From the IMG/VR virus record IMGVR_UViG_3300020171_000028, positions 1 through 62,374 of that record: a DNA stretch of 62,374 nucleotides. The stretch is one strand, 5' to 3'. This document shows positions 40,631 through 48,963 of this stretch, piece after piece (positions within the stretch are counted from its first letter, which is position 1; every line of letters begins with the position of its first letter). Under the pieces are notes generated by a model. It ran no database searches. It was given only the letters and a program-made list of their open reading frames with translations, and was not told the DNA's origin. The stretch is from a virus. The translations under genes were made by a program, and so were the position numbers.

Positions 40631-41179
40631 ATGAAAACAAATTACAGAAAAATCGAGTTTGGAGCTGGTGATAGTATTGAAAGAGCAATGAATGATTTAG
40701 CACGTTTTAAAGAACGTGGCGAATTGGTTTATGGTGAGTTTAACGAGCAAAAATTATACTCAGACATTGACGACATTGATTCAGCTTATCAGAAAATTAC
40801 AGGCAAAACAAAGGCTGAATTTGACGAAGCAAGGCAAAAAGAACATGAAGAATATGAAGCTGAAAAGAAAAGGCACGAACAAGCTATTCCCGAATTAACA
40901 AAACAATGGATCGAAAAAGGGAACTTAATACTTGATGAAAAACATCACGAATTATGGGCTAAAATAGTTCCTGTTAGGCTTAAAGATTTATACAAAGGCT
41001 TTGAATTAGGGGCTTGCCTTGACATAGTGAGAGAGCTTAATGCAGGGTGTGTGTTTGAAAAAGTGAAAACTACAATTGAAGGACAAGGGCACTCTGGAAT
41101 GTCTTTCGCTTTAGTTTGCTCAATGGTAAAATCGTTCTGTGATAGAGGTGCTGAATTTGTAAATTACGCACGTTCTTAG
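40631..41179 (+). CDS. cassette 1: hypothetical protein, 182 aa
   Basis: Starts MKTNYRKIEFGAGDSIERAMND. Central part is a charged coiled coil (residues 60-90), C-terminal part helical with two Cys. No family recognised. Its stop is seven bases before the first palindrome, but no GTT box is seen on its left, so it is either the array-edge cassette with a lost border or a phage gene next to the array. Confidence 0.65.
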   Translation: MKTNYRKIEFGAGDSIERAMNDLARFKERGELVYGEFNEQKLYSDIDDIDSAYQKITGKTKAEFDEARQKEHEEYEAEKKRHEQAIPELTKQWIEKGNLILDEKHHELWAKIVPVRLKDLYKGFELGACLDIVRELNAGCVFEKVKTTIEGQGHSGMSFALVCSMVKSFCDRGAEFVNYARS

Positions 41180-41185
41180 TATGAA

Positions 41186-41317
41186 CGCTAACGGACGGCA
41201 ATATGAAAAGTGCTGGATTACGAAGCACGGAATTGTCAAACTGCTGCGAACTTTGAAACGAGAACAAATATTTAATAACAGCACGAAACCCAGCATGTTT
41301 TATATTGCGTGTTGTGC
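41186..41317 (+). repeat. attC-like site 1
   Basis: Left box CGCTAAC (41186-41192), right box GTTGTGC (41311-41317). Arms pair as GGCAATAT / ATATTGC and CTGG / CCAG. The right box sequence GTTGTGCGTA is matched by TACGCACAAC at the end of cassette 2. Confidence 0.8.
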
Positions 41318-41340
41318 GTAGTGCTTTAATAATCAAAACA

Positions 41341-41751
41341 ATGACAAAAGAAGAAAAATTATCATTTTATTTGCCTTACAATATTAAAGGGCAATACAGA
41401 TTAGGTGATGTTGTTGAAAATGCACCTAACCCTGATGAAATTAGAGAAAAAACACTAACCACAGAAAATGCAGATTTTTTCTTTAAATTTTGTAAACCGA
41501 TATTAAGACCGATTGAAGATGCAATGACATTGAAAATTGATTTTGATGGAGAAGAAGATTTTTTTCACAATAATTTTTTTGGCTTTACAAATTTTAAAGC
41601 ATATTGGAAGGAATACGAAAGTTATGGAATGGCATATTGGCACAATAGAGCACCTTTTGTTGTTACTAAAAGATTACTTGAATATCATTTTGATGTTTTT
41701 GATATGATTAGATATGGATTGGCAACTTCAATGCACGATGCTGTCTCTTAG
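41341..41751 (+). CDS. cassette 2: hypothetical protein, 136 aa
   Basis: Starts MTKEEKLSFYLPYNIKGQY at an ATG 24 bases beyond the left box. Acidic protein with aromatic residues (FDGEEDFFHNNFFGFTN). The TAG stop lies seven bases before the right box. The bases after the left GTT (GTGCGTAGTGC) match the complement of those before the right AAC in 13 of 14 positions. Function unknown. The frame from 41305 runs into the palindrome and is not preferred. Confidence 0.75.
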   Translation: MTKEEKLSFYLPYNIKGQYRLGDVVENAPNPDEIREKTLTTENADFFFKFCKPILRPIEDAMTLKIDFDGEEDFFHNNFFGFTNFKAYWKEYESYGMAYWHNRAPFVVTKRLLEYHFDVFDMIRYGLATSMHDAVS

Positions 41752-41757
41752 CATTAC

Positions 41758-41886
41758 GCACAACGTCCGCAGGTATGTTGTCGTTGCGTGAATTTAGTAT
41801 AAACTTAAAAATAGAACAAATGAAAAATTTAGTAAGAAACTTATTTAGAGGTAGGAAGCAGCAATGCAATATATCTGATGTTAGCG
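41758..41886 (+). repeat. attC-like site 2 (contains a start codon)
   Basis: Left box GCACAAC (41758-41764), right box GTTAGCG (41880-41886). The arms are weaker than elsewhere but alignable (AGGTATGTTG against the complement of CAATATATCT). The ATG at 41820 lies in the loop and reads in frame through the right arm into cassette 3. Confidence 0.65.
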
Positions 41887-42035
41887 GTTCGTTGACACCT
41901 TTCGGAGAATCAATAAAACTGTTAAGAGATTTAGCTGACTTACAAAATGGCGCACCACTTGAACAGCATAGACAAGAGTGGGAAGAAACAATGGAACAGG
42001 TTTATGACTTCCTTAATAGGTGGGAAAGTCAATGA
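41820..42035 (+). CDS. cassette 3 ORF with start in the preceding attC loop (71 aa)
   Basis: The first 20 codons (MKNLVRNLFRGRKQQC...) come from site 2; the GTT of the right box is codon 21. Cassette-encoded part: GSLTPFGESIKLLRDLADL and a charged C-terminus. After the box there is no in-frame ATG until near the C-terminus, so either the loop ATG is used or a TTG just after the box. TGA ends right at the next left box. Function unknown. Confidence 0.6.
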   Translation: MKNLVRNLFRGRKQQCNISDVSGSLTPFGESIKLLRDLADLQNGAPLEQHRQEWEETMEQVYDFLNRWESQ

Positions 42036-42036
42036 C

Positions 42037-42133
42037 CGCTAACGGTGGCGATTGGCGAAGTAAAAGCCCTGCACTACCGTTTATGTTTAGCACTACACTT
42101 AATGGCTTTTATTTTGCCAATTGCGTGTTAGCG
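42037..42133 (+). repeat. attC-like site 3 (short, best-paired)
   Basis: Left box CGCTAAC (42037-42043), right box GTTAGCG (42127-42133), an exact complement. Arms: GGTGGCGATTGGCGAAG then TAAAAGCC pair with GGCTTTTA and TTTTGCCAATTGCGT, with two extra bases on the left. 97 bases long. Confidence 0.9.
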
Positions 42134-42178
42134 GATGCCCTTTTTCGAATTATTAATTAACAATTTAAAATAACAAAA

Positions 42179-42646
42179 ATGATACAAAAATTTAAAAAGA
42201 AACCTGTTGAGATTGAAGCAATACAATACACAGGTAAAAATGATTTTGAAATTGGTAAATGGTCAAATGATTTAGTTTACCCAAGCCCCGTTTTAGAGCC
42301 AAGTGAAAACAACCCAAGCGGTAGTTATTTGCAGATTAAAACACTTGAAGGCGTAATGACTGCAATAGTTGGCGATTGGATTATAAAAGGTGTTAAAGGC
42401 GAGTTTTACCCTTGCAAAAACGATATATTCTTAATGACTTATGATGTTGTAATTCCAAAAGATGTATTGGATGCTCAAAAATTCATACAAGAATGTGGTC
42501 GAGATATGGGATTTATGGGTTCACCTGAATATGACAGACAAAAGAAAATTGTTGATGCTTATTTTGAGCCTATTAAACAGAAAGAAAAAGAAGATTTAGA
42601 AATGGCTGAATACCTAAAACTCAAATCGAAGTACGAGGGTTCTTAG
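42179..42646 (+). CDS. cassette 4: PGDYG-like domain protein (155 aa)
   Basis: Starts MIQKFKKKPVEIEAIQYTG and has MTAIVGDWIIKGVKGEFYP followed by CKNDIFLMTY, as in PGDYG-domain proteins that are common in phages (GDwii.g..GE.yp...d.F). Ends beside the next left box; the left border GTTAGCGGATGCCC and right border GGGTTTCCGCTAAC are complementary in most bases. Function unknown. Confidence 0.75.
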   Translation: MIQKFKKKPVEIEAIQYTGKNDFEIGKWSNDLVYPSPVLEPSENNPSGSYLQIKTLEGVMTAIVGDWIIKGVKGEFYPCKNDIFLMTYDVVIPKDVLDAQKFIQECGRDMGFMGSPEYDRQKKIVDAYFEPIKQKEKEDLEMAEYLKLKSKYEGS

Positions 42647-42652
42647 GGTTTC

Positions 42653-42783
42653 CGCTAACGTTAAAATGTATGGTGTCGTGGCTGCCATAAACAAAGCCAC
42701 ATAGTTTAAAAACTTAATAATTTTAAATATGAAAAACGAACTTTCAAAAAACGAGCAGCCATGCACTATACATAGTGTTATAG
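42653..42783 (+). repeat. attC-like site 4 (contains a start codon)
   Basis: Left box CGCTAAC (42653-42659), right box GTTATAG (42777-42783). Arms: TGTATGGTGTCGTGGCTGCC against the complement of GCAGCCATGCACTATACA. ATG 42729 in the loop, 48 bases before the box, reads in frame into cassette 5. Confidence 0.85.
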
Positions 42784-42947
42784 CCCGTTTATTAGTTTTA
42801 TTCTTTGCATTGCTAATGTTTACAATGTTTAGAACAGTATTGGACACTGGATGGGCTATTTATTGGGATGCTTTATGTGCAATTGGATGGGCTGGAAACT
42901 TATTGTGGATAAAGCCATTGTCGAAGTCTTTTTTTAATGGGCTATAA
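42729..42947 (+). CDS. cassette 5: two-helix membrane protein with attC-loop start (72 aa)
   Basis: Codons 1-16 (MKNELSKNEQPCTIHS) come from site 4, the box GTT is codon 17. It continues with a hydrophobic helix (LLVLFFALLMFTMF) and a second one (YWDALCAIGWAGNLLWI). Without the loop ATG the first possible ATG is inside the first membrane helix, so the upstream start is much more plausible. The stop TAA overlaps the next left box (CTATAAC). Function unknown. Confidence 0.65.
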   Translation: MKNELSKNEQPCTIHSVIARLLVLFFALLMFTMFRTVLDTGWAIYWDALCAIGWAGNLLWIKPLSKSFFNGL

Positions 42948-43073
42948 CGTTCAAGTATTGCCGAAGGTGGGGCGTAAAAGTGCTACCGCTTTACCTAAGC
43001 ACAAAAGTTTAATAGTAGCACTAATGTTGAATTTGGGATGGTCTGCCCCACTTTTGGCAATACATTGTTAGCA
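42942..43073 (+). repeat. attC-like site 5 (contains a start codon)
   Basis: Left box CTATAAC (42942-42948), right box GTTAGCA (43067-43073). Arms: GTATTGCCGAAGGTGGGGC against the complement of GCCCCACTTTTGGCAATAC, very strong pairing. ATG 43038 in the right arm reads in frame into cassette 6. Confidence 0.9.
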
Positions 43074-43091
43074 GCCGTTTTTTATCACGAT

Positions 43092-43478
43092 ATGGAAAAT
43101 TTAAAAGAATACATTAAAAACTGGATTGCTATTGATGGACAAAAACCTTGTAATGAGGATTTGTTTGTCAATGAGTTTATTGATTTGATTACAAAAATTG
43201 ATGATGAAAGAGATATTTCATTTGATGGCGAAGGCTCTTATTTTGGCAAACAAATAACGCTTCATTTGAATAGTGGCGTTTGGATTGGTGACCCGTTAAT
43301 TCATTTTGAAATTGCTTATAGCCAAAATCAAATTAGGGTTTACACAGCAAATCATCACGGGTTTTGGTATCCTGAATATTTATCAATGTCAAATAAACAT
43401 CCAAGATTTGAAGAAGTAAAAAAGCCACTATTTAAACTGCTTTACAAGGTTTTTGGTCTGCCCGAAAATGGCTGCTAA
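43092..43478 (+). CDS. cassette 6: hypothetical protein, 128 aa
   Basis: Starts MENLKEYIKNWIAIDGQKP at an ATG 18 bases past the box; an in-frame ATG at 43038 inside site 5 would add 18 residues. Acidic protein with FDGEGSYFGKQITLHLNSG and aromatic C-terminal half. The TAA stop lies within the next left box (TGCTAAC). Borders GTTAGCAGCCGTT and AATGGCTGCTAAC complement. Function unknown. Confidence 0.7.
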   Translation: MENLKEYIKNWIAIDGQKPCNEDLFVNEFIDLITKIDDERDISFDGEGSYFGKQITLHLNSGVWIGDPLIHFEIAYSQNQIRVYTANHHGFWYPEYLSMSNKHPRFEEVKKPLFKLLYKVFGLPENGC

Positions 43479-43601
43479 CGGTGGCAATAAGAAACGAAAG
43501 GGATTTGAAACCGCTTCTTTATCTACCGTTACAAGCCTTGCAAATAGCTACCACGCTCGAATTACAGATAATACCCTTTTGTTTTTTATTGCGTGTTATA
43601 A
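43473..43601 (+). repeat. attC-like site 6
   Basis: Left box TGCTAAC (43473-43479), right box GTTATAA (43595-43601). Arms: GGTGGCAATAAGAAACGAAA and CCC-type end against the complement of CCCTTTTGTTTTTTATTGCG; two extra bases on the left. Nearly perfect stem. Confidence 0.9.
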
Positions 43602-43622
43602 AACGTTAATATTTAAATAATT

Positions 43623-43901
43623 ATGATAAAACATGAACAAATTACAGAAGTAAAAACAATATCAAAAAGGTATTGTGATGATTGCGGAAAAGAAACACCA
43701 TATAGGCGAACTTGTAACTGCTGCGGAAAAGATATGTGTAATGATTGTGTAGGACATGAAGAAAATGATGGTGGTGATTATTCAGATTACTATTGCTTAA
43801 AATGTTGGCACTTAGGAGAACCGTATCGAGATAAAATAAATGAGTTAGAAGTTCAGATAGCAGAACTAAGTGGCGAATGGATGTCGAAGTGTCGTTCTTA
43901 A
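43623..43901 (+). CDS. cassette 7: zinc-binding protein (92 aa)
   Basis: Starts MIKHEQITEVKTISKRYCDD. Cys pairs CDDC, CNCC, CNDC and a later CLKC give a double zinc-finger pattern (B-box/treble-clef-like). ATG lies 21 bases after the box with A-rich sequence before it. Left GTTATAAAACGTT and right AATGTTTTATAAC are complementary. Function unknown. Confidence 0.75.
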   Translation: MIKHEQITEVKTISKRYCDDCGKETPYRRTCNCCGKDMCNDCVGHEENDGGDYSDYYCLKCWHLGEPYRDKINELEVQIAELSGEWMSKCRS

Positions 43902-43905
43902 TGTT

Positions 43906-44037
43906 TTATAACGTACTGCAGCCTTACGCAGTGGGGGCTTTTAACCACTGCACTAACTTAAAAGCACAAAATTATGAGTAACGAAAAATTGTCCAACGAA
44001 GCACAGAACCCCCCATTGAGTAAGGGTGTTGTTATGC
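43906..44037 (+). repeat. attC-like site 7 (contains a start codon)
   Basis: Left box TTATAAC (43906-43912), right box GTTATGC (44031-44037). Arms: CCTTACGCAGTGGGGG against the complement of CCCCCATTGAGTAAGG. ATG 43974 reads in frame into cassette 8, and a further ATG is in the box itself (44034). Confidence 0.85.
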
Positions 44038-44180
44038 CCCGTTTATTTGCTATTACAGCACAAGAAGGGTGGAATGAAATGTTTTGGGATAAAGAAAAAG
44101 CCCAACACAAAATTGATACACAATACAAAAAAGATTTTCCGAATGATGAATTTTGGGTTGAAGAAGTTAATGTCTCTTAA
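43974..44180 (+). CDS. cassette 8 ORF, attC-loop start or box ATG (68 or 48 aa)
   Basis: From 43974 the protein begins MSNEKLSNEAQNPPLSKG, encoded in the loop and right arm of site 7; alternatively translation starts at the ATG inside the box (44034), giving MPRLFAITAQEGWNEM. The cassette part is acidic and aromatic. Its borders do not match (left GTTATGCCCCG, right GCACCCTAAC), unlike the other cassettes. Function unknown. Confidence 0.6.
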   Translation: MSNEKLSNEAQNPPLSKGVVMPRLFAITAQEGWNEMFWDKEKAQHKIDTQYKKDFPNDEFWVEEVNVS

Positions 44181-44185
44181 ATGCA

Positions 44186-44319
44186 CCCTAACGGTCAGGC
44201 GGTTGGCGTTCGTTGCCGACTTTGGAACACGAAATTGTAAATTTAAAAATATAGTAAATATGAAATACGAAAGTTTGATACCAGAAAGACTCGGCAATGA
44301 CGCTAACCGCTTGTTATGT
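44186..44319 (+). repeat. attC-like site 8 (contains a start codon)
   Basis: Left box CCCTAAC (44186-44192), right box GTTATGT (44313-44319). Arms: GGCGGTTGGCGTTCGTTGCC against the complement of GGCAATGACGCTAACCGC, strong. ATG 44260 in the loop reads in frame into cassette 9. Confidence 0.9.
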
Positions 44320-44478
44320 GCAGGGCTTTGTCTGAATTGTAAACATCAGAGTTATAAAAGCGATAAGAACTTTGAAAAGACAGGTATTTGCATAGTGAAA
44401 TTTTGGAAAGACAAGAGATGTAAATTATCACCGAATAAGCCAGTTTTGAAATGTGCGGACTTTGAGCCTTGCACATAA
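44260..44478 (+). CDS. cassette 9: Cys-rich protein with attC-loop start (72 aa)
   Basis: Codons 1-17 (MKYESLIPERLGNDANR) come from site 8. Then LLCAGLCLNCKHQSY and further Cys at TGICIV, KRCKL, LKCADFEPC, giving seven Cys that could bind metal. No other in-frame ATG exists in the cassette, so the loop start is the only good one. The stop TAA overlaps the next left box. Function unknown. Confidence 0.65.
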   Translation: MKYESLIPERLGNDANRLLCAGLCLNCKHQSYKSDKNFEKTGICIVKFWKDKRCKLSPNKPVLKCADFEPCT

Positions 44479-44567
44479 CGGCTGCAAACATGAGCAGGCG
44501 GGCAATGCTCAATAAACCCGCACATACGCAACTGTGTCAGCCCGCTTGCTTATGTTTGTTGTTAAAG
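44473..44567 (+). repeat. attC-like site 9 (short)
   Basis: Left box ACATAAC (44473-44479), right box GTTAAAG (44561-44567). Arms: CAAACATGAGCAGGCGGGC against the complement of GCCCGCTTGCTTATGTTTG; four extra bases on the left. 95 bases long. Confidence 0.9.
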
Positions 44568-44589
44568 GCTGGCGTTAATACTTTGTAAA

Positions 44590-44829
44590 ATGATACACGC
44601 AAGAGCAGATTATGACAGAATCCAAGACCCAAAAGGGAAAATTGGAGAAGATGAACCCGTTTTTTTGCTGAGAGCCAAAGACAGTTTAGCTCCTGGAATT
44701 TTGATGAAGTGGGCAACTGAGTTAATTAACAGAGGTGGCGACAAAAAAATGGCGAAAATGGTAACAGACCACGCTGTTAAAATGGTAGAGTGGCAAGAAA
44801 AAAACGGGTGCAAACTTCCAGATTTGTAG
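44590..44829 (+). CDS. cassette 10: conserved phage-type hypothetical protein (79 aa)
   Basis: Starts MIHARADYDRIQDPKGKIG and has DEPVFLLRAKDSLAPGILM and ends NGCKLPDL, matching from memory a small family common in phages and prophages. ATG is 23 bases after the box. Between its stop and the next box lies a hairpin (AGCGTA / TACGCT at 44843-44863). Borders complement (GTTAAAGGCTGGCG / CGCTTGCCTTTAAC). Function unknown. Confidence 0.75.
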   Translation: MIHARADYDRIQDPKGKIGEDEPVFLLRAKDSLAPGILMKWATELINRGGDKKMAKMVTDHAVKMVEWQEKNGCKLPDL

Positions 44830-44866
44830 AATGTTTCAGGTGAGCGTAGGGCTTTCTTACGCTTGC

Positions 44867-44995
44867 CTTTAACGGTTTGGCTAAGAATAGGCAGGGAAAA
44901 GAGCTTTACCCTTTCAGCCTACACGAATGATAAAACAAAACTCACAGGCTTAATTTGCAGACTTCGCCCCTGCTTATTATTAGCCTTTGTTATAG
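44867..44995 (+). repeat. attC-like site 10
   Basis: Left box CTTTAAC (44867-44873), right box GTTATAG (44989-44995). Arms: TTTGGCTAAGAATAGGCAGG against the complement of CCTGCTTATTATTAGCCT. Extra bases on the left. Confidence 0.9.
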
Positions 44996-45015
44996 GGCGT
45001 TTATAATTTAAGATT

Positions 45016-45441
45016 ATGAATACGGAATTTAAAAGAAAAGTATCTGAATTATTTCTAAAAAGGATTGACACGACTTATTTAAAAGGGTCTTGTGGAGAAC
45101 TTGGCGAATCTGTTAAAACTATTGATTATGATTATTTAAACGACCTTGTTAATGAAATAAGTGAGATTGTTAGCGATAATTTTGAACCAAAAAAATGTAT
45201 GCCTGATGGAATTAATTCTAAAGAGGAACACGATGAATATTTAAAAGCTATTGGGTATGAAAAATACGTGAAGGAATTAGAACACTTCAAAGATAGTCAC
45301 ATTGGACTTTATGTAATTGATAAAATGATTGATGACATCTTTACAGACACTCCATTAGAAAAAGACTGTAAAACAGTTGTCGAAGCTTATTTGGTTCAAC
45401 AATTTAAGCGATTAAAGTCTTTAATGTGGCGGATTTCTTAA
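45016..45441 (+). CDS. cassette 11: hypothetical protein, 141 aa
   Basis: Starts MNTEFKRKVSELFLKRIDT 21 bases after the box. Acidic helical protein; contains YLNDLVNEISEIVSDNFEP and ends LKSLMWRIS. Borders GTTATAGGGCGTTT and AAATGCCCTATAAC complement. Last cassette before the recombinase. Function unknown. Confidence 0.7.
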   Translation: MNTEFKRKVSELFLKRIDTTYLKGSCGELGESVKTIDYDYLNDLVNEISEIVSDNFEPKKCMPDGINSKEEHDEYLKAIGYEKYVKELEHFKDSHIGLYVIDKMIDDIFTDTPLEKDCKTVVEAYLVQQFKRLKSLMWRIS

Positions 45442-45446
45442 ATGCC

Positions 45447-45489
45447 CTATAACATATAAATATATTTAACTTACTTTAACCTATTGATT
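45447..45489. promoter_or_regulatory. attI-like junction with repeated AAC boxes before the recombinase
   Basis: CTATAAC (45447-45453) is cassette 11's end box, but no second arm follows. Instead ATTTAAC (ends 45470) and CTTTAAC (ends 45480) follow within 27 bases. On the minus strand this reads as GTTAAAG, GTTAAAT (a perfect GTTRRRY) and GTTATAG, like the core plus direct repeats of an integron attI. If so, the array is attached here and the recombinase gene points away from it. Confidence 0.55.
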
Positions 45490-46296
45490 ATGAATAAAGA
45501 TTATGGTAAAATTTTAAACATTTGCATTCAAAAGTTTAAATATTTAAATTACTCAGAAAACACTAGCAATATTTATGCTCATTATATCAAAGAATTCTTA
45601 GTAAAAACAGATAAATATATAGAGCATATAGTTTCAAATGACATGAATGCGTATTTAACAATGTATCGATTTTCCTCTATTTCTCAACAAAATCAAATTA
45701 TTAGTGCTTTAGCTTTTCTTTATAAGAAAGTATTAAATAAAAAATACGATAAAGTAGAATTCACAAGACCCATACGAGAAAAGAAACTTCCTAAAATAAT
45801 AGATAAAACGTACTTAATTAATAAAATATTGCGCATAAAGAATCTTAAACATAAAGCAATTTTAGCATTAGCATATTCTACAGGATTAAGAGTATCTGAA
45901 GTCATTAATTTAAAAATAAACGATATAGATTCAAAAAGAATGATAGTAAAAATAAATCAATCAAAAGGAAATAAAGATAGAATAGTACCATTAACAAACG
46001 ATTTGCTTAAAATACTTCGAGAATATTATTTAGAACATAAACCAAAAGAATTTTTATTTAATGGGCAGAAATCTTTAAAATATTCAGCAGGAAGTTGTAA
46101 TCAGTTAGTTAAGAGACATATAGGAAGCGAGTATCATTTTCATTTACTTAGACATTCTTGTTTCACTCATTTGACTGATCAAGGGGTTGATATTCGAGTT
46201 ATACAGAAACTAGCTGGGCATTCAAATCCTAATACGACTGCGATTTATGCTCAAGTAAGTACTAGTATTTTACATAGATTACCATTAGGAATTTAA
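45490..46296 (+). CDS. tyrosine recombinase (268 aa)
   Basis: Catalytic residues of the family are all present: R134 in TGLRVSEV, K159 in NQSKGNKDR, H218 and R221 in FHLLRHSC, H244 in LAGHSNPNT and Y253 in TAIYAQ. A SAM-like N-terminal domain spans about residues 1-80. The gene follows the cassette array. There is no insertion of the IntI type between the K and HxxR motifs, so by sequence it is closer to XerC/D or phage integrases than to integron integrases. It may move the cassettes, integrate the phage, or both. ATG 45490 is preferred over a TTG at 45484. Confidence 0.9.
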   Translation: MNKDYGKILNICIQKFKYLNYSENTSNIYAHYIKEFLVKTDKYIEHIVSNDMNAYLTMYRFSSISQQNQIISALAFLYKKVLNKKYDKVEFTRPIREKKLPKIIDKTYLINKILRIKNLKHKAILALAYSTGLRVSEVINLKINDIDSKRMIVKINQSKGNKDRIVPLTNDLLKILREYYLEHKPKEFLFNGQKSLKYSAGSCNQLVKRHIGSEYHFHLLRHSCFTHLTDQGVDIRVIQKLAGHSNPNTTAIYAQVSTSILHRLPLGI

Positions 46297-47425: not shown

Positions 47426-48963
47426 TAGAACGAAAAATACTTATTTCACTTATCACATCAACTGAATTTTGCAGGCAAATTAAGCCTCACTGGAATCCAC
47501 ATTACTTAGAAAGTACTATTGGAAAACATATAGCCGCTTGGTGCTGGGAGTATTACGATAAATACAAGGAAGCTCCTGGAAGGAATATTGAAGGAATATA
47601 CATCCAGAAAATAAAAGAAGGCCTTGCCGAGGATATAGCAGAAGAAATTGAGGAGGATATTTTACCGGATTTAAGTGAAGAATTTGTAGAAGGAGAATGG
47701 AACCTCCAATTTCAAATCGACCAAACTCTTCAATTCTTTCAAGAAAGACGACTTGTAATTTTAGCCAATCAAATAAAAGGGTTAGTAGAAGATAATAAGA
47801 TAGAAGATGCTGAAAATTTAGCTAAGGCTCATAGAACCGTTTTAAACGCCTCTTCTAATGATCTTGATATAAGTATCCGGAAAGAGGTTTATCGGCGCTT
47901 AAAACTAGCCTTTGACGCCTTACACGAGAATTTAATCTATTACCCAGGTGCGTTAGGCAGTTTTTGGAATGCCCAACTAGTAAGAGGTGGTTTTGTTGCT
48001 TTAATGGCAAGTGAGAAACGGGGCAAGACTTTCATGTTGATAGATATGGCGTTAAGAGCTGCCAAACAAGGAAGGAAAGTAGCCTTTTTTCAGGCCGGGG
48101 ATATGACAGAAGCGCAACAATTACGCCGTATTTGCATTTACTTAGCAAAGAAATCAGACCAAGAACGTTACTTAGGAGAAATGTATGAACCTGTAAAAGA
48201 TTGTATTTTTAATCAATTAGATACTTGCACATTGCCGGAAAGAGAATGTGATTATGGCGTATTTGAAGACAAAGCAGAAATTCAGATAAGAAAAGAAATT
48301 ACTAAGCAAGATTTAATAGAAGCGTTTGAAGATAATAAAGAATACAAACCTTGTTACAATTGCAAGAAATATTACGCAGATAAGTTAGGAGTCCCTTGGA
48401 TAAAGAAAGTAAATGTAGGAAACTCTCCTTTGGAATTAAATGAAGCAAAAAGACTAATTCATCGTTTCTTCATAAAACATTCCAGAGTATTTAAACTCAG
48501 TTCTCATGCCAACGGAACTTTATCTATCCGCAAAGTAGAAGAAATTTTAGAAGGATGGAAAGAAAAGGATGGATTTGTTCCGGATGTCATTGTTACTGAT
48601 TACGCTGATTTGTTTTCAGAAGAAACAAAAGAATTCCGACATAAACAAAATGAAATATGGAAAGGGCATAGAGCCCTAAGCCAAACGTACAATGCATTAG
48701 TTATTACAGCAACACAAGCGGATGCGGATAGTTATGAAAAACACACATTGTCTTTGAAAAATTTCTCTGAAGATAAAAGAAAGTACGGTCATGTTACTTC
48801 ATTCTATGCATTGAATCAGGATAAAGAAGGGAGAGAGAAGGCAATTGGGCTTCTGCGGATTAATGAAATACTAATCCGGGAAGGGGAAAATAATGCAATT
48901 GTTACAGTTTTGCAGAATTTAAAGAGAGGAAGACCTTTTTTAGGTAGTTTTTTAGGAAAGTAA
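47422..48963 (+). CDS. DnaB-like replicative helicase (513 aa)
   Basis: Residues 190-260 have RGGFVALMASEKRGKTFM (Walker A ASEKRGKT) and FFQAGDMTEAQQLRRI. Later are VIVTDYADLF (Walker B-like), ITATQADADS and a C-terminal VTVLQNLKRGRPFLG. A loop with Cys residues (CTLPEREC, CYNCKKYY) in the middle is unusual. The sequence is diverged from bacterial DnaB but matches phage RecA-fold replicative helicases, and it follows the loader. ATG 47422 is chosen because it overlaps the loader stop. Confidence 0.85.
   Translation: MIERKILISLITSTEFCRQIKPHWNPHYLESTIGKHIAAWCWEYYDKYKEAPGRNIEGIYIQKIKEGLAEDIAEEIEEDILPDLSEEFVEGEWNLQFQIDQTLQFFQERRLVILANQIKGLVEDNKIEDAENLAKAHRTVLNASSNDLDISIRKEVYRRLKLAFDALHENLIYYPGALGSFWNAQLVRGGFVALMASEKRGKTFMLIDMALRAAKQGRKVAFFQAGDMTEAQQLRRICIYLAKKSDQERYLGEMYEPVKDCIFNQLDTCTLPERECDYGVFEDKAEIQIRKEITKQDLIEAFEDNKEYKPCYNCKKYYADKLGVPWIKKVNVGNSPLELNEAKRLIHRFFIKHSRVFKLSSHANGTLSIRKVEEILEGWKEKDGFVPDVIVTDYADLFSEETKEFRHKQNEIWKGHRALSQTYNALVITATQADADSYEKHTLSLKNFSEDKRKYGHVTSFYALNQDKEGREKAIGLLRINEILIREGENNAIVTVLQNLKRGRPFLGSFLGK

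Follow-up and report, generated by a model that had tools for sequence, protein, structure and literature searches.

An integron-like cassette array with a linked XerA-type recombinase, the putative integrase, in the replication region of a tailed phage

Phage integrons and clusters of attC sites lacking integron integrases (CALINs) have been described previously, and the bottom strand of an attC site from phage P12002L recombines with IntI1 and attI1 (Qi et al. 2023, PMC9892861). In that study, CALINs without an integrase were found in virulent phages, while complete integrons occurred only in temperate phages and carried an IntI of host type (PMC9892861). For the Bacteroidetes, an earlier survey recovered In0 elements only and a later one a complete integron in Salinibacter ruber (PMC9024848). 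Here we describe a locus at positions 40631-46296 of the IMG/VR virus record IMGVR_UViG_3300020171_000028, the entire 62,374 bases of which were analysed and are referred to as the window. Comparative analysis makes it very probable that this locus is a platform for integron-like cassettes, placed within the early replication operon of a phage and served by a XerA-type recombinase as the integrase. An earlier note, made from the letters of the window, had proposed an integron-like array in a phage as a new kind of carrier. The attC-like sites and the cassettes built by recombination stand, while a phage carrier is not new as such (PMC9892861); the eleven small open reading frames (ORFs) and ten palindromes that it listed are all in place, and what it omitted are the adjoining recombinase and attI-like site at 45447-46296.

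The locus resembles IntI integrons in its attC hairpins with RYYYAAC/GTTRRRY boxes, its attI and tyrosine recombinase, its diverse small cassettes and the insertion of these at attI. It differs from them in that the recombinase lacks the IntI insert and falls outside the IntI clade, the carrier is a phage operon, the ORFs read toward attI with the attC site 5' of each ORF, and the pairing of the unit ends extends to about 15 bp and includes a G.T at a fixed place. The P12002L CALIN has sites of the same type, in a virulent phage whose cassettes likewise include DNA methyltransferases (PMC9892861), but the phage systems of that study lack the linked non-IntI recombinase and attI-like site that are found here in dozens of phages. 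Chromosomal integrons of Treponema also have a non-standard orientation of the integrase relative to the cassettes (PMC3607928), and the Bacteroidota chromosomal arrays described below share this integrase-toward-attI layout; however, the Treponema integrase is of the IntI family, and the phage arrays invert the ORFs with respect to attI. We found no description in the open-access literature of attC arrays with a linked integrase other than IntI, and relative to that literature the integrase, the phage-specific polarity and the wide distribution among phages are new.

The whole array spans 40631-45453 and contains 11 small ORFs, all on the + strand within 40631-45441, with 10 imperfect palindromes between them. 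The palindromes have the boxes (Y)TAAC/YRCAAC ... GTTA/GTTG and left arms that are longer by 2-4 nt. They were searched with R1, a covariance model trained on 33 sites from other phages and none from the window, and were folded as DNA. The features are listed below, with folding energies in kcal (top/bottom strand) and the extent of end matching in brackets; L followed by a number labels the loci or contigs compared.

40631..41179, + strand, ORF1, 182 aa, left end of the array, with homologues in the L224 and L227 arrays; its 3' box CGCTAAC opens site 1 and a matching 5' box is absent
41186..41318, + strand, attC-like site 1, R1 match 41186-41317, fold -17.6/-17.0
41341..41751, + strand, cassette ORF2, 136 aa, unit 41311-41764 with matching ends GTTGTGCGTAGTGC/GTTGTGCGTAATGC
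41758..41887, + strand, attC-like site 2, R1 E 0.0038, start codon of ORF3 in the loop, related site in L099/L295
41820..42035, + strand, cassette ORF3, 71 aa, start within site 2, unit ends 41880/42041 match
42036..42134, + strand, attC-like site 3, short class, R1 E 5.7e-8, fold -20.8/-16.2
42179..42646, + strand, cassette ORF4, 155 aa, unit ends 42127/42657 match; family also found among the cassettes of L003/L271 and L220
42652..42784, + strand, attC-like site 4, R1 E 1.2e-5, start of ORF5 in the loop
42729..42947, + strand, cassette ORF5, 72 aa, start within site 4
42941..43074, + strand, attC-like site 5, R1 E 5.7e-6, fold -24.4/-21.0
43092..43478, + strand, cassette ORF6, 128 aa, unit ends 43067/43477 match (11)
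43472..43602, + strand, attC-like site 6, R1 E 3.6e-6
43623..43901, + strand, cassette ORF7, 92 aa, cysteine-rich, unit ends 43595/43910 match; weak zinc-ribbon match to Pfam PF12674 (E 0.0074, below the cut-off)
43905..44038, + strand, attC-like site 7, fold -18.3/-13.4, missed by R1, related site in L108, start of ORF8 in the loop
43974..44180, + strand, cassette ORF8, 68 aa, unit with non-matching ends (hybrid or degraded)
44185..44320, + strand, attC-like site 8, R1 E 7.6e-6, start of ORF9 in the loop
44260..44478, + strand, cassette ORF9, 72 aa, start within site 8, unit ends 44313/44477 match (11)
44472..44568, + strand, attC-like site 9, short class, R1 E 4.6e-8, fold -20.1/-16.3
44590..44829, + strand, cassette ORF10, 79 aa, unit ends 44561/44871 match (9)
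44866..44996, + strand, attC-like site 10, R1 E 6.1e-4
45016..45441, + strand, cassette ORF11, 141 aa, adjoins attI, unit ends 44989/45451 match (11)
45447..45472, + strand, attI-like site, final cassette end CTATAAC followed by ATATAAATATATT, directly 5' of the recombinase gene
45484..46296, + strand, XerA-like tyrosine recombinase, the proposed integrase, about 267-270 aa

To quantify the matching of unit ends, which the earlier note had seen in nine units, we scored the complementarity of every GTT...AAC pair located 150-900 bp apart. The nine tiling units took the top nine places among all scored pairs, and the complementarity summed over the ten units, 92, was reached in none of 200,000 permutations of the partners. 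Ends pair in 9 of the 10 units, as expected if both ends of a unit come from a single circle, while only 2 of 90 mismatched pairs reach a value of 8. The same note had suggested a covariance-model search and folding of the sites as DNA, and had named a lack of significant attC scores as evidence against its proposal; the scores are significant. In a search of 294 kb, R1 detected 9 of the 10 sites, with E-values from 4.6e-8 to 3.8e-3, and gave no other match in the window (values are from the default search; with the filters off, the longer-loop sites were matched only locally). In nine of the ten sites the + strand folds more stably.

The structure of the sites was examined in a pooled dataset. 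The left arm is 2-4 nt longer, the base AACG...TGTT is invariant, and compensatory changes were observed in 18 of the 25 stem pairs. On the + strand, G.T pairs are located at fixed places of the stem (position 15, 154 G/A of about 188 sites; position 10, 74), and the reverse, A.C, is almost never seen there. On the - strand the fixed G.T pairs would be A.C mismatches, in line with the more stable folding of the + strand in the window. Pairing between the two ends of a unit extends for about 15 bp and includes a G.T at position 11 in 132 of the 182 units; at least 7 pairs were scored for 65% of own or neighbouring ends versus 9% of mismatched ends in the family set. The lengths of the attC sites in all phage arrays cluster at 80-89, 109-126 and 183-201 nt (about 84, 121 and 190 nt). 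For 108 of the 278 ORFs that follow a site, and for four window ORFs (sites 2, 4, 7 and 8), the first in-frame ATG lies inside attC, so that the right attC arm would encode the N-terminus.

Two variants of the sites were also observed. L292 (6286-9030), and likewise L272, L273 and L291, have a minimal attC of about 48 nt whose copies are almost the same across the array, as with the Vibrio VCRs. Another subtype contains a Bacteroidota-type promoter (TTTG...TAnnTTTG) in the loop, aimed into its own cassette:

L261, 8584-8677
L275, 878-970
L286, 9601-9695
L296, 691-785

A promoter in the loop was rejected as a general feature, as TTTG-N18..22-TAnnTTTG occurs in just 7 of 296 sites (0.2 expected), mostly of this one subtype.

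The recombinase gene begins about 30 bp past the last cassette end. In an alignment, the catalytic residues R133, K158, H217, R220, H243 and Y252 are conserved, and the IntI-specific insert of about 40 residues between the strand of the catalytic Lys and HxxR is absent. The protein scored 159 bits with the XerA profile NF040815 and 138 bits with the integron integrase profile TIGR02249, both below the cut-off, which at 265 for TIGR02249 places it outside the IntI family. The closest solved structures are those of XerA (4a8e and 5hxy), ahead of IntI4 (2a3v). In a FastTree phylogeny the phage recombinases form a clade (96*) separate from the IntI clade (100*), although the branches are long and the placement is rough. 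No close relative was identified in cultured phages, the best being 39% identical.

Profile searches with two and then 21 sequences yielded 302 confirmed relatives of the recombinase in IMG/VR, of which 80 were kept. The first relative found, in L003, an unrelated 102-kb phage contig, is located directly 3' of an attC-like array with other cassettes. Linkage was counted for the 54 phage loci that are not duplicates and include 3 kb or more of upstream sequence: at least one site lies upstream of the recombinase in 51 of these, at least two in 47 and at least four in 31, corresponding to densities of 6.78 sites per 10 kb upstream versus 0.44 downstream. The recombinase thus flanks the array on one and the same side in otherwise unrelated phages, of up to jumbo size, with differing cassettes. 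Several carriers are large phages, as judged from neighbouring genes, among them those for RNA ligase, a Dda-like helicase, DNA polymerase, thymidylate synthase and terminase. The attI-like motif RYYYAAC|TAtnaTATATa, tabulated from 74 distinct sequences, lies directly 5' of the recombinase in 84 of 89 phage loci and reads AAC ATATAAATATATT in the window. Contigs of the family frequently break off within the array: on the 5' side of the recombinase 33 of the 89 loci end at a distance of 2.5 kb or less, compared to 8 on the 3' side.

Xer recombinases act on a double-stranded dif site. The window recombinase matches XerA-like structures best, but its locus differs from XerA and XerC/XerD systems in that the sites are numerous, folded and covarying and belong to a cassette array. 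A Xer/dif system or an ordinary phage integrase, with a single double-stranded core or attP, was rejected given the arrays linked to the recombinase in 51 of 54 loci; a tRNA search of the window gave no hit. We also rejected pdif modules and shufflons, as the sites are variable covarying hairpins with no fixed double-stranded core.

Pairs of related phages revealed turnover of cassettes at the attI-like site. L258 and L260 are 99.98% identical over 10.85 kb starting at a TAAC 60-80 bp 5' of the recombinase, with unrelated arrays upstream, and L243 and L244 are identical (100%) over 2.65 kb, followed by unrelated arrays from the TAAC at attI. The same switch of arrays at attI was seen between L242 and L244 and between L272 and L273. 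Furthermore, L272 and L292 have two cassette stretches in common, 960 nt at 99.9% and 580 nt at 99.5% identity, which lie side by side in one of the phages but have further cassettes between them in the second. Of the two, the 960-nt stretch is bounded exactly from TAAC to TAAC and includes its 5' attC. Gain, loss or reordering of cassettes is thus seen in L258/L260, L243/L244, L272/L273 and L272/L292, while no close relative of the window phage itself was found. The earlier note had held that a gene order conserved among phages, with no cassette variation, would speak against an array of this kind; instead, cassettes vary between near-identical phages.

The composition of the cassette was inferred from 34 pairs of homologous cassettes in different phages. 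The mean attC score was 51 for the upstream sites, compared to 16, a background level, for the downstream sites and 18 for cross pairs, indicating that a phage cassette consists of an attC and the ORF after it. The ORFs read toward attI in 121 of 127 phage units, which is the reverse of the classical polarity.

Arrays with the same type of attC are located beside XerA-like recombinases in Bacteroidota chromosomes. In loci of the Flavobacterium/Crocinitomicaceae/Chitinophaga type, the sites follow the integrase gene on its 3' side but occupy the opposite strand, the distance from the integrase stop to the end of the last cassette is 118-149 bp, and attI reads RYYYAAC|TTgtTTATATg. Another XerA-like clade, from Zobellia, Maribacter and Flagellimonas, has the array 5' of the integrase. 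The two sets are as follows.

Chromosomal arrays 3' of the recombinase, - strand: L154, L202, L150, L157, L161, L162, L169, L170, L172, L190, L198, L215
Flavobacteriaceae clade with the array 5' of the integrase: L152 146-7900 (Zobellia uliginosa DSM 2061), L159, L171, L176

That chromosomal XerA-like relatives lack arrays was considered and rejected: the count of sites upstream is at background, but R1 places the sites 3' on the other strand. Of 74 chromosomal contigs, 39 end within 2.5 kb on the array side and 12 on the opposite side. ORFs read away from attI in 28 of 30 chromosomal units, the classical polarity. The orientation of the hairpins relative to attI is identical in phage and chromosomal forms, so the phage form amounts to a flip of the ORF, which presumably suits read-through in an early operon. 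The strand bearing G.T in the chromosomal form is the non-coding (bottom) strand, and the recombinogenic strand of classical attC sites is also the bottom strand (PMC8946536), which supports, but does not prove, that the + strand is the substrate in phages. Taken together, Bacteroidota and their phages probably share a class of integrons that uses XerA-type recombinases outside IntI, in which the phage ORFs were flipped for read-through in early operons and the phages act as self-sufficient gene-capturing platforms with a cassette pool of their own.

The window carries genes for a terminase, a portal protein, a primase, DnaB and a DnaC-type protein, and thus represents a tailed phage; relatives of the recombinase and of the sites point to a host among the Bacteroidota. 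We identified 14 relatives of the window phage with DnaB proteins 35-55% identical, in which the helicase, primase, loader and DnaB genes are retained in the same order. Neither the recombinase nor any R1 match was found in 192 kb of sequence from these phages, indicating that the platform is an insert in the replication operon.

A mechanism consistent with these data would be that the XerA-type recombinase recombines the attI 5' of its own gene with the attC hairpins 5' of each cassette ORF. New cassettes (attC-GTT-ORF-RYYYAA) would enter as circles at AA|C beside attI, in which case the youngest cassette adjoins the recombinase, and excision followed by re-insertion would reshuffle the cassettes. 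The substrate would be attC folded as a single strand, to which the strand asymmetry of folding lends indirect support, and the folding strand would most likely be the coding (+) strand. Transcription of the cassette genes is probably by read-through from the upstream phage operon, which would explain why all ORFs are co-directional and read toward attI.

Several observations weigh against such a platform with its own integrase. The ends of unit 8 (44031-44192) do not match, GTTATGCCCC versus GTTAGGGTG, probably because the unit is a hybrid formed by a deletion between two cassettes; ORF1 has no matching left end; and site 7 (43905-44038) escapes R1. In the whole set about a third of consecutive units are unmatched, partly due to missed sites. 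Some members of the recombinase family have no visible array, many because the contig stops there, and arrays are not clear for the more distant recombinases of the phages Ingeline, Leef and Freya, where R1 searches around the recombinase gave no match in Ingeline or Leef and a single weak match in Freya_10. Finally, the support is all comparative, and a host recombinase other than that of the phage could act in trans.

The latter point is taken furthest by a passive CALIN, in which a host integron integrase moves the cassettes and the adjoining recombinase is a phage integrase or Xer-type resolvase located there by chance. IntI1 does recombine a P12002L attC (PMC9892861), R1 matches the P12002L sites without a linked recombinase, and related arrays are found in Bacteroidota chromosomes next to XerA-like recombinases of their own. 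However, chance neighbours are not expected to occur at the same array end with a conserved attI-like site in dissimilar phages, nor should the breakpoints between near-identical phages coincide with that site. Although no IntI was found, a tyrosine recombinase is consistently linked to the arrays, contrary to what defines a CALIN, and we consider this explanation improbable. Even less probable is that gene modules are swapped by homologous recombination between repeated palindromes with no action of a site-specific recombinase. Near-identical attC copies within some arrays, such as the 48-nt repeats of L292, could serve such exchanges, but the attC sequences are widely divergent with a conserved structure in the window and in many phages, and neither the unit-specific pairing of ends nor the cuts at TAAC are expected from exchange within a palindrome. 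An interpretation of the palindromes as terminators, or as RNA hairpins that separate small early genes and are conserved along with gene order, is very improbable: they do lie between co-directional genes, can fold as RNA and in some cases have start codons in their loops, but pairing of the ends of one unit across an entire ORF would be unexpected, gene order varies, relatives lack the palindromes and an Rfam scan of the region matched no family.

Integrons are the standard example of gene capture and are defined by IntI. If an integron-like platform of this type is confirmed, a second recombinase lineage in that role would imply repeated origins of integrons or the use of more than one enzyme for the same way of life. 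Clusters of attC that lack IntI would also be accounted for, and phages would have a device of their own for acquiring and rearranging genes, among them DNA methyltransferases with a possible role against host restriction. With the G.T code of the hairpins, the choice of strand can be tested directly, and the chromosomal form is available in cultured bacteria such as Zobellia uliginosa DSM 2061 and Flavobacterium strains.

The sites of Polaribacter phage P12002L (L084; 38032-39248 and 30005-30059, both on the - strand) belong to the same family and have the phage-type polarity, with no linked recombinase, while R1 gave no match to the Vibrio sites of phage Va_90-11-286_p16. In Polaribacter phage Freya_10 (L304) the weak R1 match, at 48072-48203, is near the integrase in the circular genome, and among the Freya isolates the stretch before the integrase varies from 53 to 4150 bp in the records.

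The cargo of the phage arrays is diverse: 452 ORFs fell into 368 clusters, 327 of which were singletons. Pfam matches were few among the 118 ORFs scanned and comprised DNA methyltransferases of four kinds, RNA ligase, exonuclease, phosphoesterase, SmpB and YopX, and family searches of the window cassettes gave no confident function. Because most of the cargo has no recognised family, the gathering of host genes suggested by the earlier note is unproven. In a nucleotide search of cultured phages, no single record spanned the greater part of the region, and the best among the matches listed were short and lay within ORF4. There, the segment 42335-42446 is similar to genes from SPO1-like Bacillus, Streptococcus and Enterococcus phages, suggesting that ORF4 is a widespread phage gene turned cassette.

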